Assembly: GCA_023474345.1 (NCBI GenBank)
Contig: JAMCXS010000019.1
Location: 1 to 64,000, forward strand
Length of the DNA: 64,000 nucleotides
Source of the DNA: Acidobacteriota bacterium
GTDB lineage: Bacteria > Acidobacteriota > Terriglobia > UBA7540
Direction of reading: 5' to 3'
Below, in pieces: positions 46,954 to 58,900 of this stretch. The position numbers and the translations under genes were made by a program. Positions within the stretch are counted from its first letter, which is position 1. Each line of letters begins with the position of its first letter. The notes below the pieces were generated by a model. That model was not told the DNA's origin. It ran no database searches and was given only the letters and a program-made list of their open reading frames with translations.

Positions 46954-46982
46954 TTGACAATCATCGGCTATCGTGCTAGTCT
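46954..46982 (+). promoter_or_regulatory. Strong promoter-like site ahead of A-rich element copy 1
   Basis: TTGACA (46954-46959), 17-base spacer, TAGTCT (46977-46982), then AACT. The same arrangement with TAGCCTAACT is at 57904-57932. No ORF with a ribosome site follows either one. Confidence 0.5.
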
Positions 46983-46994
46983 AACTTCTGGGCT

Positions 46995-47084
46995 TGTAGC
47001 GCCGGTGTCTCCACCGCCGCCCGTGCGGTCCCCGTAGAGACGTTCCGCTGGAACGTCTCAGAAGCCCCAGCGGGGCGTCTCTAC
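46995..47084. repeat. Nested inverted repeats (TGTAGCG family and GTAGAGACG)
   Basis: TGTAGCGCCGGTG...CACCGCCGC is followed by a perfect hairpin GAGACGTTCC-GCT-GGAACGTCTC (47037-47059), and an outer pair GTAGAGACG / CGTCTCTAC closes at 47084. Confidence 0.5.
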
Positions 47085-47278
47085 AGCCGCCAATGTAGAT
47101 GGCCCGCGGTGGCTTGCTGAGGACGCAAAAGCCGCTTGCCGCAATTGATTGATACTAAATAACTTACTCGACAGTACGAACATGGGAAGGGAAAACACGA
47201 GAGCTTTGGCAAATTTCAAGATCAGGATAACGCGCTTTAGAATGAATGAGATATCCTGAGAATCGCGCAAAAACGCGC

Positions 47279-47446
47279 AAAAAAAGAATTCTTTTTTTTG
47301 CGAAAACGAAGCGAGGAAGTTGTTGAAAACAAAGGATCGCTGCGGAAAAAACGGGCAAAACGAACCGAAAACGAACCTAAAACGAAGCTAGCCAAGTTGT
47401 TGAAAATAAAGGATTGGCCAAAAAACGAAACCAAAACGAACCGAAG
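47279..47446 (+). repeat. A-rich dispersed element, copy 1
   Basis: It starts with a palindrome of seven A, GAATTC, and seven T, followed by A-rich, strongly strand-biased sequence built from CGAACC(G/T)AAAAC units. Two internal copies of AGTTGTTGAAAAYAAAGGAT lie 76 bp apart. About 168 bp align without net gaps to 58299-58467, with roughly 13 mismatches and 68 identical bases in a row (47347-47414). It lies just past the acs stop, unlike the surrounding GC-rich DNA. Confidence 0.85.
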
Positions 47447-57903: not shown

Positions 57904-57932
57904 TTGACACAGTAGGCTGTGTATGCTAGCCT
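57904..57932 (+). promoter_or_regulatory. Strong promoter-like site ahead of A-rich element copy 2
   Basis: TTGACA (57904-57909), 17-base spacer, TAGCCT (57927-57932), then AACT. It matches the site at 46954-46982 including GGCT in the spacer and TGC before the -10. Confidence 0.5.
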
Positions 57933-58298
57933 AACTAAAGTCGCGGCTGGCGCCTTTCCAGCCGTGAACGTTTCCCATTTGAGGAGCCGACGGCCAGTAA
58001 TTTCCTGACCGTCGCTATTGCCGGCGGGGCTGAGGGGCGCGCGAGGCAAAGCGAAAATGAAGCGGAAAGTTGCACGCGAATGCCACGTGCCTCTGAACAG
58101 TATCGGCAAGAAAACTTTTGCTGTCAGATATGTCTAGCCCAGTGATGTTTAACATGTGCGCCAACAAAAGCCGTAATCAATTGAAAAAAAGCTACTTAAT
58201 CGACACGCCCAAAAGGCTGCGCGCAATCAGTTGCCGCTCGATACAGGATAACTTATTGAAAAACAAGGAGAACGGAGGAGATGGACGAGGAAATGCAC

Positions 58299-58467
58299 AA
58301 AAAAAAGAATTCTTTTTTTGCGGAAACGAAGCTGGGAAGTTGTTGAAAATAAAGGATGGCTGCGCGAAAAACGGGCAAAACGAACCGAAAACGAACCTAA
58401 AACGAAGCTAGCCAAGTTGTTGAAAATAAAGGATGTCCCAAAAAACGAAGCTAAAACGAACCGGAGA
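58299..58467 (+). repeat. A-rich dispersed element, copy 2
   Basis: Second copy of the element at 47279-47446, in the same orientation, with the same poly-A/GAATTC/poly-T head. The two 76-bp internal units are clearer here: both contain AGTTGTTGAAAATAAAGGAT. A frame starting TTG just after the palindrome reads RKRSWEVVENKG...LAKLLKIKD in both copies, but 5 of 9 differing codons change the residue, so coding is not established. Confidence 0.85.
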
Positions 58468-58519: not shown

Positions 58520-58900
58520 CACTATGACGACGTGCGATTTGTGGCGCGGGATATTCCGTCCGGTACAATGCTACCGCATCATCAAGAAGGAAGCATCCGA
58601 TCCTTTCGCGAAGGCGGATACTGCCTTGCCGATCAGCGACGTCATCGAAAACAAGTTCTATCGGGTTAAGGTGGACCCCGAGAGCGGAGCGATCAAGAGC
58701 ATCTATGACAAAGAGTTGCAGCGCGAACTGGTGGACACCGCAAGTCCCTGTCGCCTGAATCAGCACGTCTATGTGCCTGGAGACGGCCCCCTCACCATCA
58801 AAAGCGCTGAACACCACTCACTGGATACGAGTACAATCTCTAAGCTCATCAGCGTTTATCAGGGATGCAACGCGTTCAATTATGCGAATCCTGGAGGGGT
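58520..58900 (+). pseudogene. GH38 alpha-mannosidase remnant
   Basis: Two frames together give a stretch typical of the GH38 middle/C-terminal domain: DDVRFVARDIPS in one frame, then, after a one-base shift near 58560, VQCYRIIKKE...ISDVIENKFYRVKVDPESGAIKSIYDKELQRELVD and RLNQHVYVPGD. The N-terminal catalytic domain and the remainder of the C-terminus are absent. The full enzyme would be about 800-1000 aa. The fragment lies between the A-rich element and the intact GH2 gene. Confidence 0.75.

Follow-up and report, generated by a model that had tools for sequence, protein, structure and literature searches.

The window analyzed here, a 64,000-nucleotide stretch of a contig from an Acidobacteriota bacterium, contains two copies of an A-rich element, at positions 47279 to 47446 and 58299 to 58467. 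Aligned with each other, the copies differ by 13 mismatches and 3 gap positions, in agreement with the roughly 13 mismatches counted in an earlier note on this DNA, and the 68-bp identical run reported there is indeed the longest that they share. Both are headed by the perfect 20-bp palindrome AAAAAAAGAATTCTTTTTTT, and their described contrast with the GC-rich surroundings is borne out by the composition (44 to 46% A in the copies; 56% GC in the window). The internal units, previously placed 76 bp apart, are spaced by 77 bp. As had been stated, no plausible gene contains either copy; a 973-amino-acid open reading frame starting in copy 1 is antisense to an acetyl-CoA synthetase gene. A stretch at 58524 to 58870, located after copy 2 and before the intact gene that follows (58909), resembles a fragment of a glycoside hydrolase and is possibly a decayed gene. 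The element is longer than previously described: both copies start ∼325 to 396 bp further upstream, at a shared promoter. The features of the two copies are as follows.

46954 to 46982, forward strand: promoter of copy 1, TTGACAATCATCGGCTATCGTGCTAGTCT (-35 box, 17-nt spacer, extended -10 box); 5' edge of the element, common to most copies
46999 to 47021, forward strand: predicted 5' hairpin of the putative copy 1 transcript; leaders are more structured than the upstream control
47115 to 47278, forward strand: conserved leader block of copy 1 (type A leader), from an alignment of 11 own-genome copies
47279 to 47298, forward strand: A/T palindrome of copy 1; A-U stem kept in 39 of 39 own-genus copies
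47307 to 47337, forward strand: putative recognition unit 1 of copy 1, motif match
47338 to 47446, forward strand: A-rich linkers (AAAACGAACCG type, 11-bp spacing) around unit 2 of copy 1, with the tail
47383 to 47414, forward strand: putative recognition unit 2 of copy 1, motif match
57904 to 57932, forward strand: promoter of copy 2, TTGACACAGTAGGCTGTGTATGCTAGCCT, with the shared promoter pattern
57942 to 57966, forward strand: predicted 5' hairpin of the putative copy 2 transcript (z of -2.5)
58300 to 58319, forward strand: A/T palindrome of copy 2, a perfect 20-bp palindrome
58327 to 58357, forward strand: putative recognition unit 1 of copy 2, motif match
58358 to 58467, forward strand: A-rich linkers around unit 2 of copy 2, with the tail
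58403 to 58434, forward strand: putative recognition unit 2 of copy 2, motif match

The palindrome is preceded by a sigma-70 promoter of the form TTGACA-N17-TGNTAGNCT, 325 bp upstream in copy 1 and 396 bp upstream in copy 2. This pattern occurs twice in the window, both times at a copy of the element, where 0.01 matches are expected. Across the aligned copies from the same genome, conservation begins ∼10 bp before the promoter and ends in the A-rich tail. When the 450 bp preceding each copy were searched on the sense strand, a strict promoter match was found for 16 of the 21 copies in this genome and for 54 of the 64 copies with enough flanking sequence in G011 and G024, two species from another genus of the same family; in controls on the latter set, none of the 64 copies had a match upstream on the opposite strand, and none had one downstream on the sense strand. 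The corresponding promoter in isolate 17 resembles TTGACA-N17-TACTAT. The first 55 nucleotides after the promoter are predicted to be more structured than the upstream control (mean z of -1.14 versus -0.34; P = 0.002), with the 5' hairpin being formed by different sequences in different copies. The leader of copy 1 also includes a REP-like inverted repeat, GTAGAGACGTTCCGCTGGAACGTCT/AGAAGCCCCAGCGGGGCGTCTCTAC (47034 to 47084), that is found in the leaders of other copies as well, and a short open frame in the leader of copy 2 (58118 to 58411), shared with L021, encodes the partly conserved LIDTPKRLRAI-CRS, unlike other leader types.

Downstream of the promoter and leader, the element consists of an A7/T7 palindrome and one to four units of CGAAGCC-N3-AAGTTRTTGAAAAYA, with A-rich linkers of the AAAACGAACCG type between them. 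The motif AAGTTGTTGAAAATAAAGGAT, with up to three mismatches allowed, matched the window four times, compared with 0.00 matches expected (shuffled sequences give none). The core motif is kept across genera, and the center of the palindrome differs between them (GAATTC, TTCG, or CACG). In isolate 17, an inverted half-unit, AACCTAGCGGCTTCG, lies between units 1 and 2 (L080, L082, L074, L101, L108, and L084), where it would close a long hairpin with unit 1; its sequence suggests that it could pair with either unit, giving alternative hairpins. The tetranucleotide CTAG, often as GCTAGCCTA, is found shortly 3' of the A-rich tail in many copies (L003, L008, L010, L014, L016, L019, L025, L045, L046, L048, L073, and L106) and also recurs in the promoter region of copies.

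The 172-bp element is present in 21 copies over many contigs of this genome (2 Mb assembled, 75% complete), in ∼36 copies in a congener (G001), and in at least 40 copies each in G011 and G024. Many copies sit at contig ends, and no near-identical ones were found among those of this genome. Confinement of the core to this contig, an objection anticipated in the earlier note, is not observed, because the core recurs elsewhere in this genome and in other genomes; an assembly duplication can likewise be dismissed, given that the copies are 76 to 92% alike and have unrelated flanks, and the repeat belongs to no conserved protein. A search of 84,980 species with the degenerate core CGAASCNRNNAAGTTRTTGAAAAYA returned 87 matching stretches, 85 of them from Acidobacteriota (Terriglobia and other MAGs) and the remaining two single cyanobacterial matches. 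With one mismatch allowed, the core was detected in 30 of 399 genomes of the class, and the reversed control pattern in none of the 399; the 30 genomes are nearly all from one family, and certain members of a second family contain a small number of copies. Neither the phage, plasmid, and viral collections nor the literature searched yielded a match to, or a description of, the A-rich repeat. Apparently, one group of soil Acidobacteria carries a so far undescribed family of dispersed elements, with about 20 to 50 of them in each genome.

More than half of the copies compared between G011 and G024 agree in position and orientation. The downstream flank was kept in 21 comparisons and the upstream flank in 11, with the orientation always kept; only the downstream side was shared in 13 cases, and only the upstream side was shared in 3 (P = 0.02). 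In eight element pairs (L206 to L221), chosen for their matching downstream flanks, synteny extends over 1 to 8 kb downstream, but immediately before the promoter it is lost, inverted, or interrupted. For example, at L216, this genome has an additional gene of 2.5 kb right in front of the element (-2948 to -462 relative to the element); G001 lacks this gene at the orthologous site, where the flanking synteny resumes. The 5' edge of the element looks like a rearrangement border in these eight pairs. Between species, conservation is often lacking in the DNA just 3' of the element. In a phylogenetic tree, copies at orthologous positions group by genome, not by position, and are 0.73 to 0.85 alike, compared with 0.84 to 0.94 for the best paralogues. 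Because copies are nearer to their paralogues than to their positional counterparts, the family evolves in concert within genomes.

The neighbors seen next to the copies are ordinary, unrelated genes; a type III antitoxin RNA, by comparison, would be a tandem-repeat RNA beside a toxN-like gene. In G011 and G024, the downstream gene is co-oriented with the element in 54 of 74 copies (P = 1e-4), at a median distance of 273 nt, and the upstream gene shows no clear orientation bias; the gene calls used for the orientation counts come from a simple hexamer-based script. The downstream genes conserved together with the element in these two species, recognized by eye, look like housekeeping or metabolic genes, e.g., serine hydroxymethyltransferase-, RuvC-, dihydroorotase-, and MnmG-like. 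Counts by hand gave a co-oriented downstream gene in ∼19 of 22 copies in isolate 17 and in 12 of 12 copies in isolate 21. In the latter, the units lie between codirectional genes, and several end at the next start codon or at most ∼30 nt from it; at L112, for example, the motif ends at the GTG start of a gene for a UvrD-like helicase. Such direct repeats shortly upstream of start codons were seen in isolate 21 and not in this genome, where the downstream gene is co-oriented for 11 of the 21 copies, that is, without bias. In SRVP_29 and SJ613, the downstream gene mostly runs in the opposite direction. Given the lack of bias in this genome and the mostly opposite genes in these two, a role as a leader is not general.

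Several explanations of the family can be weighed against these observations. The earlier note had offered three, a small basic-protein gene, a structured RNA, and a non-autonomous mobile element. A gene for a Lys/Arg/Glu-rich peptide would fit the open frames found in some copies and the RTG codons in some leaders, but the units are in different frames, copies are separated by single-base indels, change is not limited to one codon position, and the candidate start codons of some leaders are absent from, or substituted in, leaders of another type, making this reading barely conceivable. The structured RNA survives in part: an RNA is likely, but a folded body lacks covariation support, with RNAalifold predicting no covarying pair in 23 copies of genus g11 and no body stem in 39 own-genus copies. 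What it did predict in the latter was the A/U stem of the palindrome, which is formed in every own-genus copy; in 5 of the 39, both partners of one pair are changed. This stem, the hairpin tendency of the 5' leaders relative to their control, and the long hairpin open to unit 1 of isolate 17 are the features expected of a classically folded RNA, either riboswitch-like or a hairpin-loop sponge. However, left/right unit chimeras between copies did not significantly weaken the predicted pairing (P = 0.09 and 0.27), and the Rfam covariance-model search yielded no family matches, Acido-1 and Acido-Lenti-1 included, so that a folded RNA of this kind is very unlikely. A candidate stem around GGGACAAAAAA in genus g11 (ACGAAT/ATTCGT, ACAAAT/ATTTGT, and CGTG/CACG) seemed compensatory and was rejected after failing in several copies. 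What is conserved in the body is its primary sequence, which would probably be single-stranded if transcribed.

The element could also act as double-stranded DNA, as an array of binding or bending sites with phased A-tracts for a nucleoid protein or a transcription factor. The A-tracts at 11-bp spacing, the perfect A/T palindrome, and the spacings between certain units that approximate whole helical turns (52 and 42 bp) are compatible with such an array, but the 10- to 11.5-bp periodicity of A4-tracts is not significantly above that of shuffled sequences, the motif is asymmetric and ∼25 bases long, and the element is strictly oriented after the promoter and, in several genomes, toward the gene; we consider this explanation unlikely. 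If the family were instead a non-autonomous mobile element, either a mobile promoter or a MITE-like unit, it would have spread with its promoter and be carried without a cellular role. The dispersed family implied by this third proposal is confirmed, and its many copies, unrelated flanks, and sharp 5' edge at the promoter are what mobility would produce, as are the frequent location at contig ends, usual for repeats, and the finding that just 4 of the 21 copies of this genome matched the neighborhood of a copy in the fragmented assembly of G001. Present-day mobility, however, is unsupported, because neither target-site duplications nor inverted ends were found in 12 copies with approximate edges (shared words, 5.25 for own versus 5.61 for cross-copy comparisons, and 4.83 versus 5.45) and because most positions compared between G011 and G024 are kept, together with the orientation. 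The absence of near-identical copies and the lack of a match in the phage, plasmid, and viral collections also argue against a mobile element, and on balance we regard this explanation as doubtful.

We give an even chance to a different reading, in which the elements are self-promoted, largely unstructured noncoding RNAs or leaders with repeated sites for a putative trans-acting factor. That an RNA is likely follows from the promoter carried by most copies, the fixed orientation, and the placement of the motif at start codons in a relative; the oriented promoter and this placement, together with the ∼25-nt motif shared across genera and the unstructured A-rich body, point to an RNA-level element with a motif recognized in trans. 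From these features of the sequence, we infer transcription, a binding factor, and a regulatory effect. The sigma-70 promoter would drive a leader with a short 5' hairpin followed by the A7/U7 palindrome, and the A-rich, mostly single-stranded stretch after it would display one to four copies of CGAAGCC-N3-AAGUURUUGAAAAYA. The repeated motif would most likely be the recognition site for a putative RNA-binding factor acting in trans, either a protein or another RNA. Where the element precedes a co-oriented gene, as it does in several genomes, the RNA would serve as a leader or intercistronic element that sets the expression of that gene. In this genome, with no preferred orientation of the neighbors, the copies may be free-standing decoys that titrate the same factor.

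CsrA was found in none of the 25 family genomes searched, with positive controls, which excludes it as the factor and led to the rejection of a CsrA sponge. Hfq is present in all family genomes searched, and its ARN motif is depleted, not enriched, in the elements. Complementarity to rRNA was not above that of shuffled sequences in eight of nine comparisons, with one marginal value for 16S rRNA. More tentatively, and with a less than even chance in our judgment, bacteria of one Acidobacteriota family may possess a genome-wide posttranscriptional network, in which a ∼25-nt single-stranded motif for a putative global RNA-binding regulator would be common to many mRNA leaders and to tens of unstructured RNAs with their own promoters, the copies being kept uniform by gene conversion. 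Should the motif be a recognition site shared in this way, an undescribed global RNA regulator would come to light in soil bacteria that are abundant, mostly uncultured, and devoid of CsrA; with the exact motif, promoter, and loci defined, this idea is directly testable.

Repeated protein-binding motifs, a possible counterpart of the units described here, are characteristic of the noncoding sponge RNAs of the CsrB/RsmY type, and some of the A-rich units carry AAAGGAU. Unlike in those systems, CsrA is missing from the family genomes, and GGA is neither kept across genera nor enriched. REP/REPIN and MITE elements are dispersed short intergenic repeats as well, but the A-rich element is not palindromic overall, has no inverted ends or target duplication, and is oriented and promoter-led. 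Among the noncoding RNAs of Acidobacteria, Acido-1 (RF01686) and Acido-Lenti-1 (RF01687) have been described (PMC2864571), from which the element differs in having no covariance-model match. The TAACTGA direct repeats of marine Beggiatoaceae are dispersed in sets of two to six, mostly close upstream of the start codons of unrelated genes (MacGregor 2015, PMC4679880). The A-rich elements likewise contain dispersed direct repeats, which lie near start codons in isolate 21 and not in this genome, but differ in sequence and phylum; instead of a 7-base unit, they have units of ∼25 bases with linkers, their own promoter, and an A/T palindrome, and the units are free-standing in most genomes. The family would be a further case of dispersed, candidate-regulatory intergenic repeats of bacteria, set apart by sequence, length, promoter, palindrome, and inheritance.

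Mobile promoters, so far as the account in PMC8049555 describes them, are related promoter-bearing intergenic sequences located before unrelated genes (Matus-Garcia et al. 2012; van Passel et al. 2014; both as cited there). The A-rich family resembles them in the copying of a promoter and its placement before unrelated genes, the diversity of which was judged by eye. Recent mobility, which is also expected of mobile promoters, is not seen, as flanks and orientation are kept between G011 and G024. Unlike the mobile promoters of that account, the family conserves a long, putatively transcribed body along with the promoter, and its positions are largely inherited. Dispersed intergenic repeats that combine a promoter with such a conserved body are unusual among bacteria, and even if they are old mobile DNA, they constitute an oriented, promoter-carrying family that evolves in concert within genomes.
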